Source of the DNA: a virus
Strand: one strand, 5' to 3'
Virus record (IMG/VR): IMGVR_UViG_3300036790_000093
Coordinates: 1-21,014 of that record
DNA: 21,014 nucleotides
This document shows, piece after piece, positions 4,150 to 20,945 of the stretch (positions are counted from its first letter, which is position 1; each line of letters begins with the position of its first letter). The position numbers and the translations under genes are program-made. The notes beneath the pieces were generated by a model. That model worked only from the letters and a program-made list of their open reading frames with translations. It made no database searches and was not told where the DNA came from.

Positions 4150-4632
4150 ATGATTATAACCGCCATCGGAAATCGAGAGACAGCTAGGGGTAGATTCCTA
4201 ACTAAGTTTCTGGTCGATGATGGTTGTTGGGAGTGGCAGGCCGGAAAGTTCGAATCTTCAAAGGGTGGTTACGGACAGTTCTACTATGAGGGTAAGCCTA
4301 TTCAGGCTCATCGGTTCTCGTACATGATGTTCGTTAATGACATTCCAGAAGGATTGGTTGTTCTTCACACTTGCGACAACCCTCCGTGTGTTAACCCTTC
4401 TCACCTTACTCTTGGTACCCATGAGGATAACGCCAAGGATAGGGAATCCAAGCTGAGAGGTCGGAACTCTCGCAAAACCCACTGCCCCAACAATCACGAA
4501 TATAATGAGGAGAACACTTACATTACACCAGAAGGTTGGCGTAAGTGTCGAATCTGTATTCGTGAGCGTCAAAATGTCCATCCTTCAATGACCTTCATTG
4601 AAGAACCCACCAAAATGGAAATGGAGCAGTAG
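4150..4632 (+). CDS. HNH homing-type endonuclease
   Basis: A 160-residue protein with an N-terminal CWEW motif (26-29), an AHRFSY segment (53-58) and the HNH core VLHTCDNPPCVNPSHLTLG (71-89) with HEDNAKDR following. A C-terminal zinc site is formed by Cys112, His116, Cys133 and Cys136 (HCPNNH, then RKCRIC). Free-standing HNH nucleases of this type cut DNA and spread by homing. The gene lies between scaffold and capsid genes, interrupting an otherwise expected adjacency. Two sampled 60-base lines are about 48-50% GC against about 60% in the capsid gene, consistent with separate origin. It ends four bases before the preferred capsid start. Confidence 0.92.
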   Translation: MIITAIGNRETARGRFLTKFLVDDGCWEWQAGKFESSKGGYGQFYYEGKPIQAHRFSYMMFVNDIPEGLVVLHTCDNPPCVNPSHLTLGTHEDNAKDRESKLRGRNSRKTHCPNNHEYNEENTYITPEGWRKCRICIRERQNVHPSMTFIEEPTKMEMEQ

Positions 4633-14800: not shown

Positions 14801-15999
14801 CTGGGCGCAACTGGCTAATCCCCGAATGGATGAGTAACCATCTCTTGAACGACACGTACAAGAACCGCATCCGTGCGGCAGCCGATATCAACATGCGCTT
14901 TACCCGTGCCATAACCCGGTTCCAGAAAGCAATCGTCTACCTTGACGGTGCAGCACGAGCATCAAAGGAAGGTTCTTCCTTCTACGCCGACGAGCAAGTC
15001 CCAATGTCCGACGAACAGGGTAACCCAATCCATCACCCCGTGACCGGACGGCGCATGTACGAAACCAAGCGCAGTGAAGTCCCAATGTCGCCAGCCCAAG
15101 CCCACAAACAAGGTATGGATGCCGTTGCCGAGGTAATGGGTAACCTTCGGCACATGACGCCACTAGAGCGTAATCTCCTAGTTCGAGTGTTCCCATTCTA
15201 TGGGTGGACCAAGCACATTCTCCAATACGTCATGTCGTACCCATTCGACCACCCATACCGGGCAATGATTCTCTCCAACCTAGCGACCATGGATAGCGAG
15301 GACACCGCCAGCGGACTACCACTCCGTATCCAACTCCTTACCTTTGTTGGAACACCTGACAGTCAAGGGAACGTCACCGCACTCGACACCAAGGCTCTCA
15401 ATCCCCTCCGTGACACAGCAAACTACGCCAGCCTTACAGGGCTATTTGAGTCACTCAACCCCGCTATTACCGCCGTTGGAGCACTGGTAGACCCCCAGTT
15501 CTCATTCGGCGGACAGAACATGTACCCGAATGTCAGCTTCTCGACCCTTTACGGCACCAAGCAAGCGGGTGCGGGTGGTAACGCTTACGACGCCGCCGAA
15601 CAGTTCGTCCCCCAGTTGTCCGCCCTAGACGAGGCATTCAACCTCTCGGGCCAGTACGGTTACCTGGCATCCTCTGGCAACGGTGCGTTCAGTAAGAAGG
15701 TGTTTGAATCCCTCGGGCTCCCATTCACCCCAGAGCAACTGAACCTCCGGCAGATGGCAGCACAACAGGAAATCGATCGGTACCAAATAGCATCTAACGC
15801 GGGGTATGAGTACGCCAGCGGCTCTGACCCCAATGCCCTATCCGGCTATGCGGCCAACGCCAATATCCCTGACCCATTGAACACCGAGTACAACGTTACC
15901 CCAGCGTACCTCGAAGCAATGGAGAATGAGTCAGAGGATAAGTCGGGACTGCCTTACTTGGAGACAGCAACGCCGCCACCGTCGATTCCGGGGTTGTAG
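11821..15999 (+). CDS. Very large virion protein, probable internal/ejection protein (1392 aa)
   Basis: The largest gene in the window. Seen in order: an N-terminal region with Gly/Pro-rich hydrophobic segments (about 95-190), long charged helical stretches (about 270-760), and a hydrophobic region near 905-945 (LFRFSILGLSPRYTAHILMG). A block at about 1115-1150 follows (LLVRVFPFYGWTKHILQYVM), a segment type I recognise from the ends of large phage virion or polyvalent proteins. No lysozyme/transglycosylase or protease motif is clear to me. Size, position after adaptor and the two low-complexity proteins, and the mix of helices with membrane-like segments fit an ejected internal protein. The TAGTG stop overlap couples it to the following HNH gene. 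Confidence 0.6.
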   Translation: MPSKPQVQEFTQSWNKTVNWAKQQGIPYSAYYPVYQLDTQRMLGGTQLSESERIRAIEASAGLNYSTALPTDNQNPADLIGNTTKNAQDIFTGLEPTHIIPNVFDTVKSTITSPGRILGDVGDALFGGSAGRKTAAQDILKPNNILAWAPGVYDLAQVFAVDPNLTGSKGAQAIAKDPITSLLDVIPFGRALSEGLGRTAIGDAVSDRVGMTTDEMRKTGIWRVGGKLVKSTPLPKALMNAEHPLLNYVTDPETGLRTPTGVKEQPTIGDRWEQFKRKAGASGEQADITESNLKLGAEGTRVVEPLLEPAMQALKGLSEDDRTLLTKWSQTDFRPYSEKMADDRIPPQVREAYSAAYQWSQTYQQLKMQSGESVSIRTPWNNPDGTPIYEQYLVDSDQYKAVSKTLDQSVSDQDALDKAAEPFDTILYKIDENDRNMSGVFQVIDQQRGSVYDSIKRSIPQEANATAAERLRSTLPEGERWDRAVSDQTPLIKNLLGLGPSDKITLHQVNALRDLFAPGGLLDQAYNAYRNQDWVALNKATKAAVRKFKSNALSSIPREGRAQLHSIYRITENLQKYAADRQRMVEHLNKLATGHYRGARASKAIYEKSISYLSVKAAKSHQKWLETAIRNPPDVWRNAAMDALTTKVSQLEKTATAMEDTHKVLSAQGWSDSELTKMRQDPRTIMEIMTNAAKGTIENSMLPDVDHAEFLAATQSMYDELASLRARGQAPLYVPALTTYDIDHGLSPTYDAHVTGVKARKPSSSFSKVWGYTPTIYDLGAGMLKATKEMVEKDITNQFIEQQLMPRLMPSTDVQAIVRNYYSSEIANLADEAAKGSPRTETALSVINRGLDKMGLEAFDPSQFFGEGFSHPGLNQPYYIDKNLASAFKQSIDKFQFPAQGIVDRGTNLFRFSILGLSPRYTAHILMGGSFLVGLRAHPGIVKFAGDAMHFAVHNSFSDKTLQRFPHAGELESTTSTQEGAAMAQYHYVAMNSAGRNWLIPEWMSNHLLNDTYKNRIRAAADINMRFTRAITRFQKAIVYLDGAARASKEGSSFYADEQVPMSDEQGNPIHHPVTGRRMYETKRSEVPMSPAQAHKQGMDAVAEVMGNLRHMTPLERNLLVRVFPFYGWTKHILQYVMSYPFDHPYRAMILSNLATMDSEDTASGLPLRIQLLTFVGTPDSQGNVTALDTKALNPLRDTANYASLTGLFESLNPAITAVGALVDPQFSFGGQNMYPNVSFSTLYGTKQAGAGGNAYDAAEQFVPQLSALDEAFNLSGQYGYLASSGNGAFSKKVFESLGLPFTPEQLNLRQMAAQQEIDRYQIASNAGYEYASGSDPNALSGYAANANIPDPLNTEYNVTPAYLEAMENESEDKSGLPYLETATPPPSIPGL

Positions 16000-16367
16000 T
16001 GCCAGTACCACGTCCTCTTGGTAAAACTAACTACCGTAAGGTGTGGGAGCGTGATTACGGCATCTGTCAATACTGTGGTTTTCCTGGTGAGTCGATTGAC
16101 CACATTATTCCATGGGCATACCAACCCAATAACTCTATGGACAATCTCGTAGTTGCTTGTATGCCATGCAATAGATATGCCAGTGCTTCTATGTTCAGTA
16201 CGTTTCAAGAGAAGCGGGACTATGTGCTAATGAAGCGTAGGCCAGAGATAGAACGCCAATATCTTGAACACCAGATAGCACAAGAGGAAGAGGCCGAAGA
16301 ACGGGTCCGAGCCGGATTTTGCTCCGCACAGGATTGCGCAGGTGGTCACGAAATCACTTTGTCGTAG
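15999..16367 (+). CDS. HNH endonuclease (small, zinc-ribbon type)
   Basis: A 122-residue protein from GTG 15999, which overlaps the previous TAG. The HNH core is textbook: RDYGICQYCG (Cys23, Cys26), IDHIIPW (Asp34-His35), NLVVACMPCN (Asn49, Cys54, Cys57, Asn58). The four Cys bind structural zinc and His35 would act in catalysis. The usual lysine after CN is absent (CNRYA). A charged helix (EEEAEERVRAG) and a second Cys pair at the C-terminus (FCSAQDC) follow. It could be a homing nuclease or a packaging-associated HNH protein; its distance from terminase genes favours the first. The sequence is AT-richer than the gene before it. Confidence 0.9.
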   Translation: MPVPRPLGKTNYRKVWERDYGICQYCGFPGESIDHIIPWAYQPNNSMDNLVVACMPCNRYASASMFSTFQEKRDYVLMKRRPEIERQYLEHQIAQEEEAEERVRAGFCSAQDCAGGHEITLS

Positions 16368-17911: not shown

Positions 17912-18454
17912 GTGTCAAAGGGCAGTCAGAAGAATCCCCCCACCAAGGTGCCAGAGGAATGGGAACTAGAGAATGAATCCGCTGTTTTCAGTCAGTACCG
18001 TCTCAATAGCGATATTTCGAAACGAGTCATATCTAAGACAACATCACATTCTCAGTTCCGGTGCCCCGAGTTTCTTATACGACGTGTAGAGATGTTGCTT
18101 GCTACTGGACAAGAGTCCATTCTCAAAACCAAGTCGGACGTTTTCGTTAACGCACTGTTTTGGTGGTTGGATGAATGGGACAAGCAACACACGGATGGAG
18201 CGAACGGACTTCTTCGGGCTCAAATGGCGCTCATGCAAATGAAGTTGGAACGTACGATTAGGTCTGATTTTCTCATAGAGGCAAAGGATCAACTTGACGA
18301 GTTGAAACGAGACGGAGATATTCGAAGGCTTAATCAACTACACGGTCACCTACAAATGGTCTACAGTGATTCATTGTCCGATTCTCCTGAGTCATATCTC
18401 AAGGATGTGAGAAATCTTATTAATGAGGTTAAACGACTAATGGACGACCACTAA
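17912..18454 (+). CDS. Putative ribbon-helix-helix DNA-binding protein with coiled-coil tail (180 aa)
   Basis: The preferred start is GTG 17912 (SKGSQKNPPTKVPEEWELEN after the initiator), preceded by AAAGAGAG. GTG 17861 would start inside the repeat array. Residues around 45-90 fit a ribbon-helix-helix: strand HSQFRCPEFLIRRVEMLLAT, loop, then TKSDVFVNALFWWLDEW, matching the 'strand, helix, S/T-x-x-D/E, helix' layout of Arc/MetJ-like proteins. The C-terminal half (about 100-180) is charged helix, probably coiled coil. Such dimers bind short tandem repeats, and one lies directly upstream. Two sampled lines are 38-45% GC against about 60% just downstream, which hints at recent acquisition. The fold call is from pattern only. 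Confidence 0.5.
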   Translation: MSKGSQKNPPTKVPEEWELENESAVFSQYRLNSDISKRVISKTTSHSQFRCPEFLIRRVEMLLATGQESILKTKSDVFVNALFWWLDEWDKQHTDGANGLLRAQMALMQMKLERTIRSDFLIEAKDQLDELKRDGDIRRLNQLHGHLQMVYSDSLSDSPESYLKDVRNLINEVKRLMDDH

Positions 18455-18612
18455 TGCCCCGAACACCCGACTCTCCGAACCAGTGCAACTCAGCGGACTA
18501 TGGCCCAGGCCACTGGGGACACAAGTGCAAGCTCGACAAGCATCCTCGCAGTGTGGCCCATCTCTGCGGGTGCGGGTGGATATGGTCAGACCCACAGTTG
18601 GAAGTCGTTTAA
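18454..18612 (+). CDS. Small Cys/His-rich zinc-binding protein (52 aa)
   Basis: ATG 18454 overlaps the previous stop (TAATG). The 52-residue product has Cys11, His20, His23, Cys25, His30, His36, Cys38 and Cys40 (GHWGHKCKLDKHPRSVAHLC, then GCGWIW), a layout common in tiny actinophage proteins and likely to bind one or two zinc ions. Base composition returns to about 60% GC here. Its stop codon lies inside one copy of the GTTTAAAC palindrome. No function can be assigned. Confidence 0.65.
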   Translation: MPRTPDSPNQCNSADYGPGHWGHKCKLDKHPRSVAHLCGCGWIWSDPQLEVV

Positions 18613-18776: not shown

Positions 18777-18957
18777 GCTAATCCACATCGACATAATGGA
18801 CGGTGAAGAGATACCACCAGCGGCCTACGAGGGTGGGCAGCTCTTCCAACGTGTCGACCCTATCCTAAGAGAGGACGCATGGAACGGTGGCGTGAGTGGG
18901 CTCCGCTACTGGTTTATCAAAGAGGTACCAGACGAACCGGAATCCAATGCCGATTGA
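18769..18957 (+). CDS. Small hypothetical protein (62 aa)
   Basis: ATG 18769 overlaps the zinc-ribbon gene; the stop overlaps the start of the helicase gene by 11 bases. The product (MRKLIHIDIMDGEEIPPAAY at its start, then LFQRVDPILREDAW) is acidic and mixed alpha/beta. No family recognised. The overlaps on both sides suggest it is translated with the helicase. Confidence 0.55.
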   Translation: MRKLIHIDIMDGEEIPPAAYEGGQLFQRVDPILREDAWNGGVSGLRYWFIKEVPDEPESNAD

Positions 18958-19930
18958 ACTACCCTCTTGGGCCACCGAAATCCGCCCCCATCAAATGAAA
19001 GGGCTGCAAGATGTTATGGCACAGTACAACGCTGGCAATAGCATCGCAGTCTTGGACGCACCAACTGGGGCAGGTAAGACGCTCATTGGGGAACTTGTAC
19101 GGCAGACACTCAACTGTCGGTCCCTCTATCTATGTTCTTCTATCTCACTGCAGGAACAGTTCGCCCGTGACTTCCCCCGTGCAAAGATTCTCAAGGGTCG
19201 AAGCAACTACCCTACGGCCGATGCCCCTCGGAAGTTTCCCGACCTCAATGCAGGAGACTGCGACAAAACCCGTGCAGACCTTCCCGCCTGTTTCGACTGT
19301 GACCCCGACGATACCACCTTGGACATGCCCCATTGTAAGTGGTGCCACCCGGTCAAAGCCTGTCCGTATGAGAAAGCTAAAGCGGAAGCCATCCAAAGTC
19401 CCATCGTTTGCACTAATACCAGTTACTTCCTCCATGAAGCCAACTACGTCGGGAATCTAACTCTTGCCCGCCAGTTGATAGTAGTGGACGAGGCCGACCT
19501 ACTTGAGGACAACCTGCTCTCATTCGTAGAAGTCCATATCTCCAAGAAACGAGCCGAGCAACTAGCTATTACTGCCCCAGAAAAGAAAACGGTTGAATCG
19601 GCGTGGGTGGAATGGGCACTCATGGCAGAGGACCAGTTAAAGAAGGAGCGCAAACATGAGCGATACTCCGGCAGCACTGTCACAGCTATTAGAGAGCGTC
19701 GATACCTCGAAAACCTTATTGGCAACGTCCGACGACTTAATGCTACGGATACGGGCCTTTCAAGCGGAGGTTGGGTCTACACTGGATATGATAAGGGTGA
19801 CATTAGCTTCAAGCCTGTCACGGTCGATACTATCGCACACCAGTACCTATGGAAGCACTCGCCACGATGGTTGTTGATGTCAGCCACCACTATTAGCTTC
19901 GAAGTGATGATGCAGTCGCTAGGACTATGA
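18947..19930 (+). CDS. XPD/DinG-like superfamily 2 helicase, N-terminal half (first RecA domain with Fe-S-type insert)
   Basis: A 327-residue protein from ATG 18947 (MPIELPSWATEIRPHQMKGL). Helicase motifs in order: Q-like RPHQ (13-16), Walker A APTGAGKT (38-45), Ia-like YLCSSISLQEQF (61-72), a Cys-rich insert (Cys105, 115, 118, 130, 133, 139) where XPD-family proteins hold a 4Fe-4S cluster, a second-segment PIVCTNTSYFLHEA, the DEAD box VVDEADLLED (179-188), and motif III LLMSATT near the C-terminus. It stops just after LGL, exactly where the second RecA domain should begin, and that domain is the next ORF. The family unwinds DNA 5' to 3'. The first usual cluster cysteine (after GRSNYP) is Thr90. 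Confidence 0.9.
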   Translation: MPIELPSWATEIRPHQMKGLQDVMAQYNAGNSIAVLDAPTGAGKTLIGELVRQTLNCRSLYLCSSISLQEQFARDFPRAKILKGRSNYPTADAPRKFPDLNAGDCDKTRADLPACFDCDPDDTTLDMPHCKWCHPVKACPYEKAKAEAIQSPIVCTNTSYFLHEANYVGNLTLARQLIVVDEADLLEDNLLSFVEVHISKKRAEQLAITAPEKKTVESAWVEWALMAEDQLKKERKHERYSGSTVTAIRERRYLENLIGNVRRLNATDTGLSSGGWVYTGYDKGDISFKPVTVDTIAHQYLWKHSPRWLLMSATTISFEVMMQSLGL

Positions 19931-20592
19931 GCCCACAGACCCAAACCTTCCAACACCACTCATGGGGTGGCGTATCAGTCCCCTCCACCTTCGACCCATC
20001 CCGGCGTCCCATCTACGTCCACCCCATTGCCGAGATGACCCGGAAGAACGAGGCCATCGCCCGCCCACTCATAACCAATGCAATCGAAAAGGTGGTGGCT
20101 CGACACCCCGATGACAAAATCCTCATCCATACAGTCTCGTACGCTCTCAATCGGTTCATTGAGGATCAGCTACGGCGGGGGGACTCCCTATTCCGGGTTG
20201 TCACTTACAACGCCGCTAACGAGAAACAGAGAGCTATTGACCGGTATCTCTCTCAACCGGGGTCAGTATTCCTCGCACCCTCTTTGGACCGTGGTATTGA
20301 CTTGCCGGGTGACGATTGCCGAGTCATCGTTGTATGCAAGGTACCTTTCCCTTCGCTTGGAGACAAACAGATTAGCGCCAGGATGCACTCTAAGGGAGGC
20401 CAGACGTGGTACACGGTCAAAACCATTCGGTCGCTAGTGCAGATGACTGGCCGGGGTATGCGCTCTGCCGACGACTTCTGCGAGAGTTATATCCTCGACA
20501 AGATGTTTCTAGAGAGCATTTGGCGACGTAACAGGAACCTGTTGCCCAAGTGGTGGTCGGATGCGTTGGTATGGAACAGGGGGACACTATGA
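19927..20592 (+). CDS. XPD/DinG-like superfamily 2 helicase, C-terminal half (second RecA domain)
   Basis: A 221-residue protein whose ATG overlaps the stop of the previous gene (ATGA at 19927-19930), in the -1 frame relative to it. It carries the remaining motifs: STFDPSRRPIYVHP (20-33), IV-like DKILIHTVSYALNRF (63-77), V-like APSLDRGIDLPGDD (117-130), and VI, QMTGRGMRS (172-180) with the arginine finger. Alone it lacks ATP-binding residues, so it must work with the upstream product. No slippery heptamer is seen at the junction and AGGA is only two bases before the ATG, so stop-restart coupling is the simplest way it is translated. A recent frameshift or sequencing error remains possible. 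Confidence 0.88.
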   Translation: MSPQTQTFQHHSWGGVSVPSTFDPSRRPIYVHPIAEMTRKNEAIARPLITNAIEKVVARHPDDKILIHTVSYALNRFIEDQLRRGDSLFRVVTYNAANEKQRAIDRYLSQPGSVFLAPSLDRGIDLPGDDCRVIVVCKVPFPSLGDKQISARMHSKGGQTWYTVKTIRSLVQMTGRGMRSADDFCESYILDKMFLESIWRRNRNLLPKWWSDALVWNRGTL

Positions 20593-20945
20593 CAATGAAC
20601 GTTGTACAAACTGGAAACACCGAGGTATGGATTCCTCGCCTGCCAGTGTTTAAACCAGACCCACTGTTCAACTTCATCCGTGACCTACGACACAAACAAC
20701 AACTATGGAATAGAGAGGAACCAACCATGCCCATTGACCAAGACGAACTAGATCGTCGGTTTCACCACCATCCACCGAAGGACCAAGAGGTAATAGACCG
20801 TCACGTTGAAATACGGCGTGCATGTATGAACCTTGCTTACACCATCGGCCAACTTGTGCCAGAGGGACGAGAGAAGTCACTGGCACTGACCCACACCGAA
20901 GAGGTAATGATGTGGGCCAACGCCGGGATTGCGAGGAACCAATGA
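20589..20945 (+). CDS. Acb2/Tad1-hairpin-like protein (possible cyclic-nucleotide sponge, anti-CBASS/anti-Thoeris)
   Basis: A 118-residue ORF starting at ATG 20589, which overlaps the helicase stop (ATGA). Its last 72 residues resemble, from memory, the family annotated Acb2/Tad1 hairpin domain: a RFHHHPPKD lead, a first helix with IRRACMNLAYTIGQLVP, and a second helix REKSLALTHTEEVMMWANAG ending IAR. Characterised members bind cyclic nucleotide signals from CBASS or Thoeris defences. The N-terminal 46 residues (MTMNVVQTGNTEVWIPRLPV and onward) are not part of that pattern. ATG 20727, behind a strong AGGA, would give the 72-residue form, the usual length for this family. Family recognition is moderately sure; the anti-defence role is inference. 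Confidence 0.55.
   Translation: MTMNVVQTGNTEVWIPRLPVFKPDPLFNFIRDLRHKQQLWNREEPTMPIDQDELDRRFHHHPPKDQEVIDRHVEIRRACMNLAYTIGQLVPEGREKSLALTHTEEVMMWANAGIARNQ
20716..20719 (+). promoter_or_regulatory. Internal Shine-Dalgarno motif before in-frame ATG 20727
   Basis: AGGA, inside a longer AGAGAGGAA, stands 7 bases before ATG 20727. That start yields only the conserved hairpin-like domain. The upstream ATG 20589 also has a reasonable motif (AGGGGGA), so the gene may give two products. Confidence 0.5.

Follow-up and report, generated by a model that had tools for sequence, protein, structure and literature searches.

A conserved two-gene XPD/DinG-like helicase in a clade of uncultured phages

In a virus fragment of 21,014 bases (IMG/VR record IMGVR_UViG_3300036790_000093; this whole stretch is called the window) the two RecA domains of an XPD/DinG-like helicase are encoded by two overlapping genes, ORF1 and ORF2. 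The conserved two-gene XPD/DinG-like helicase is real. We consider it highly likely that ORF1 and ORF2 encode an obligate two-subunit helicase, with the ATP site at the subunit interface. The split has been retained through long evolution and looks like that of a genuine two-part enzyme, not of a broken gene.

Motifs, family and predicted fold

An earlier note, made from the sequence of the window, had claimed that the two RecA domains are on separate ORFs overlapping by ATGA, and that the split lies between motif III in ORF1 and RecA domain 2 in ORF2 with all motifs on one side or the other. Coordinates, frames and motifs were found to be as claimed (Table 1). ORF1 ends in SATTISFEVMMQSLGL before its stop codon, and ORF2 begins with MSPQTQTFQHHSWGGVSVPSTFDPSRRPIYV. 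The SF2 motifs I-VI follow in order over the two RecA domains of ORF1 plus ORF2 and are invariant in the group of split relatives described below; the longer motif V stretch of ORF2 reads RGIDLPGDDCR. Four cysteines, expected of XPD/DinG proteins as Fe-S ligands, are present between motifs I and II in all ten split contigs, the cluster being putative.

Table 1. Positions of the two helicase genes and of their motifs in the window
Feature	Position	Strand	Remarks
ORF1 (proposed subunit A)	18947..19930	+	327 aa; ATG at 18947, TGA at 19928-19930; RecA domain 1 with Fe-S and Arch-type insertions; phrog_2488 18-372
ORF2 (proposed subunit B)	19927..20592	+	221 aa; ATG at 19927, end at 20592; RecA domain 2 (Helicase_C_2); PF13307 E 1e-22; phrog_2488 374-576
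ATGA start/stop overlap of ORF1 and ORF2	19927..19930	+	Seen in the sequence; ATGA also in L030, TTGA in L029
Walker A / motif I DAPTGAGKT (ORF1)	19055..19081	+	Invariant columns
Four Cys, C105, C130, C133, C139 (ORF1)	19259..19363	+	Putative 4Fe-4S ligands; invariant in 10/10 split relatives
Motif II DEAD (ORF1)	19487..19498	+	D181, E182, D184 invariant
Motif III SATT (final motif of ORF1)	19880..19891	+	S312-T314 invariant
Motif IV region HTVSY (first motif of ORF2)	20128..20142	+	Invariant
Motif V region RGIDL (ORF2)	20290..20304	+	R, G, D, L invariant
Motif VI QMTGRGMR (ORF2)	20440..20463	+	Arginine finger motif; Q, M, G, R, G, R invariant

Both ORFs matched PHROG 2488 (DNA helicase, 579 positions) with E-values that exclude chance, 1e-36 for ORF1 and 3e-43 for ORF2, and together they cover consecutive parts of this single-chain profile nearly end to end. 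The Pfam family Helicase_C_2 matched ORF2 with 81 bits (cut-off 25.3), and DEAD_2 matched ORF1 barely over its cut-off (21.4 versus 21). The phage single-chain helicases of PHROG 2488 have the same domains and motifs in the same order as ORF1 plus ORF2, and their representatives in cultured phages are ~31-34% identical to ORF2. These helicases are one polypeptide; among the relatives recovered, split members were confined to a single clade of ten contigs. Phage records searched at the DNA level gave no match, nor did viral contigs searched at the protein level with ORF1 alone; single-sequence patterns were too strict, and the relatives were found with alignments. A scan of genome contigs detected no prophage of the split-helicase group, the matches being distant cellular relatives (22-33%).

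One of the split relatives, L026, is readable in frame through its single stop, and its joined product was folded by AlphaFold2 with 50 relatives. The read-through model had a pLDDT of 93.7 and a pTM of 0.92, and its weakest ten-residue block (66) was residues 331-340, the junction. Its whole length could be matched to structures of DinG and XPD: the top match was DinG 6fws_A (Z 25.4, 496 residues, rmsd 5.3), and E. coli DinG (6fws/6fwr) and archaeal XPD (4a15, 3crv) gave Z 22-25 over 460-510 residues. In this predicted structure, which represents one joined chain and not the binding of two, the parts together make one XPD/DinG-type molecule. Motifs, four cysteines, fold and family HMMs all agree with membership of the XPD/DinG (Rad3-type SF2) family. 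The Fe-S type cysteines are common to DinG/XPD and the split helicase, and in function too it would be expected to resemble them; ssDNA-stimulated ATPase and 5'-3' unwinding are traits of this family. However, DinG/XPD are single chains, a usual though not strictly defining trait of the family, whereas RecA1 and RecA2 are separate proteins in the window and its nine relatives.

Conservation of the split and variety of the junctions

A profile for each half was run over the stop-to-stop ORFs of IMG/VR relatives, in 106 and then 80 loci. The halves were on different ORFs in ten distinct contigs (the window, L030, L026, L028, L027, L029, L031, L033, L032 and L035), with the split point at the same interdomain site in 10/10. 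In the remaining loci where both halves were detected, they were always on one ORF. The nine split relatives came from six metagenomes and are ~45-73% identical to the window in amino acid sequence, which indicates that the split is old. When the joined halves were placed in a maximum-likelihood tree, the ten contigs formed one clade (support 97/94) with no unsplit member, corresponding to one change of state. The clade was not recovered from the C-half sequences alone, probably because these hold too little signal. Conservation in phage genomes, which the earlier note had proposed as a check, was thus borne out; the note had regarded an uninterrupted gene in close relatives, along with reads showing an indel at the junction, as a sign of error or recent mutation, and the close relatives are all split.

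Every helicase motif, Walker A included, and the four cysteines were invariant across the ten contigs. Among six relatives pN/pS averaged 0.35 in the first half and 0.30 in the second, synonymous sites being close to saturated, and purifying selection acts on both halves. The two also evolve in step, their distance matrices being correlated (Mantel r 0.81, p 0.0001). An error of sequencing or assembly, or a pseudogene of recent origin, might be suspected since IMG/VR contigs are metagenome assemblies and one indel can also create a four-base overlap. To this reading we give virtually no chance, and for the clade as a whole it is already refuted: ten contigs with differing junction sequences fall into one clade, and both halves are under purifying selection with all motifs intact. 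It is also highly unlikely that the halves have parted functionally, the domain 1 protein, for example, binding DNA and the Fe-S cluster alone and the domain 2 protein acting as a regulator. Separate genes would permit independent dosage, and small genes lie between the halves in some phages, but the motifs of the composite ATP site are all retained on both sides and the halves change together.

The borders of the junction are constant: ORF1 ends with LG(L/I/V) and at most five further residues, and ORF2 typically starts just before V-P-S-T-F. What lies between the borders varies. There is no spacer in the window and L030 (ATGA) or in L029 (TTGA). In L026 an in-frame TAA is followed six bases on by ATG. 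The halves of L027 are separated by a 61-codon ORF joined to them by GTGA and ATGA, those of L028 by one of 46 codons with TAAATG and ATGA at its two ends, and in L035, L032 and L031 further ORFs were found within 149-723 bases. In all, 149-723 bases with small ORFs, some start/stop-coupled on both sides, separate the halves in 5/10 contigs, and fusion by read-through or frameshift therefore cannot be the general rule. The gap ORF of L028 has a homologue in the window, a small cysteine-rich ORF upstream of the helicase (18454-18612, +; 58% identity over 40 residues); small genes thus move around the operon. L033 (6837-6972) is an exception that we cannot explain: the ORF2 frame stays open over the last part of ORF1, yet offers no start codon near the junction, and the closest in-frame starts lie within ORF1, 76 and 94 bases upstream.

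The earlier note had argued for a two-subunit helicase partly from the ATGA restart overlap. The two-subunit reading is supported by the conserved split and the varying junctions, but the overlap is a weak argument: four-base overlaps occur at 3/24 neighbouring gene pairs in the window and are ordinary junctions in these phages, so that ATGA by itself argues little. The relatives are the stronger evidence. The note had also held a -1 frameshift fusion to be less likely, having seen no slippery heptamer, and we too consider it very improbable that programmed -1 frameshifting in the overlap yields one fused protein. In four contigs (the window, L030, L029 and L033) ORF2 is read in the -1 frame relative to ORF1, and the junction of L033 lacks a start codon, but this frame is forced by any four-base overlap. 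The 31 bases open in both frames in the window contain no slippery heptamer, and X_XXY_YYZ was likewise absent from the shared open stretch of L030, L029 and L033. The spacers with extra ORFs in five relatives and the in-frame stop followed by ATG in L026 also speak against a frameshift.

Introns, inteins and homing endonucleases often interrupt phage genes (PMC3653736, PMC2988022), and two HNH genes are present elsewhere in the window. Rejoining of the halves by an intron or intein, or recent breakage of the gene by a mobile element, is nevertheless exceedingly improbable: seven of the split loci gave no match to any Rfam intron family, nothing separates the two genes at the window junction, and none of the gap ORFs tested was named a homing endonuclease by Pfam. 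In this last respect the helicase differs from the phage Aeh1 ribonucleotide reductase, whose nrdA is split by a homing endonuclease gene into nrdA-a and nrdA-b and is functional without a self-splicing intron (PMC3653736); it resembles that enzyme, of another kind, in being a phage enzyme in two genes. The split may have originated by an ancestral mobile insertion that was later lost.

Gene neighbourhood

In full-length relatives the helicase pair is followed by the genes F12, F21, F13, F14 and F17, in this order. F13 has a weak Cas4-type match, F14 is AAA_24 (Sak4-like), and F17 is an ERCC4 plus helix-hairpin-helix nuclease. Unsplit uncultured phages carry a single-chain helicase at the same cassette position, and in most of those examined homologues of F12, F13, F14 and F17 follow it in the same order; the two genes thus occupy the exact slot of the single gene. 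We infer that the cassette is a recombination or replication module using ssDNA. A DNA polymerase A was sought without success in 13 records that contain split or single-chain relatives. F12 (L107:16532-17269 and homologues) is conserved, has no family match, and is predicted to combine an OB-like core with a disordered stretch. Its fold gave weak OB-fold matches (best PrgE, Z 6.0), a lead that it is possibly an ssDNA-binding protein of the OB-fold kind.

Directly 3' of ORF2, again with an ATGA overlap, lies an ORF (20589-20945, +) with an Acb2/Tad1 hairpin domain (PF24729, E 1.8e-19), whose product is likely a cyclic-nucleotide sponge against CBASS or Thoeris defence. A WhiB-like regulator gene (828-1160, +, phrog_472) hints at an actinobacterial (Actinomycetota) host; searches of cultured phages with the capsid protein gave only 22-28% relatives. 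The two HNH endonuclease genes are at 4150-4632 (+), directly upstream of the major capsid gene, and at 15999-16367 (+). In G002 (L117/L118), the contig holding L033, one 609-codon ORF occupies the place of the separate capsid (F6) and F9 genes of its relatives, by either a fusion or an indel. In the single-chain relatives L014, L018, L015 and L020 the stop-to-stop ORFs extend ~500 bases or more further upstream of the helicase domain, perhaps as an additional N-terminal domain.

Known split helicases and the proposed two-subunit enzyme

The earlier note knew of no two-piece XPD/DinG-like helicase. In the literature on split helicases, searched mainly in freely accessible papers, neither a two-piece XPD or DinG nor one divided between the RecA domains was found, but split SF2 helicases as such exist. 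The Lhr-type large helicase and the reverse gyrase of Nanoarchaeota are encoded by two-piece genes that have been retained (PMC3655853); like ORF1/ORF2 they are kept in two pieces, but they belong to families other than XPD/DinG. The SF2 helicase DrmAB of DISARM comes from two adjacent genes whose products form a complex (PMC12458937). There the separated part is an OB-CON-DUF1998 module and DrmA keeps both RecA domains, unlike ORF1/ORF2. Splitting of SF2 helicases is therefore already known, and the division of an XPD/DinG helicase between its RecA domains appears to be new here.

Subunit A would supply RecA domain 1, its Fe-S and Arch-type insertions and the ATP-binding motifs, and subunit B RecA domain 2 with the arginine-finger motif. 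In the window the ORF2 product would be made by coupled translation at the ATGA, and in relatives after one or more small genes. The ATP site of SF2 helicases lies between the two RecA domains, and for this reason neither subunit alone should hydrolyse ATP productively. The products very probably form a heterodimer sharing one ATP site. With DNA and ATP the subunits are predicted to come together as a heterodimeric translocase of the 5'-3' type; the physical complex, its ATPase and unwinding activities and its polarity are all inferred properties. The pair would substitute for the single-chain helicase in the phage recombination/replication cassette. That separate synthesis of the halves of this obligate heterodimer, in some phages together with small zinc-ribbon-like proteins encoded between them, controls assembly or allows exchange of the RecA2 subunit is a more tentative, rather unlikely variant.

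In SF2 helicases a single chain nearly always carries both RecA lobes, and the usual picture of the motor cycle includes the short linker that joins them. A relative of XPD/DinG that has naturally lost this linker, kept across phages down to ~45-48% identity, would reveal whether translocation needs it. With a two-component helicase of this kind the halves could be mixed, titrated and swapped.
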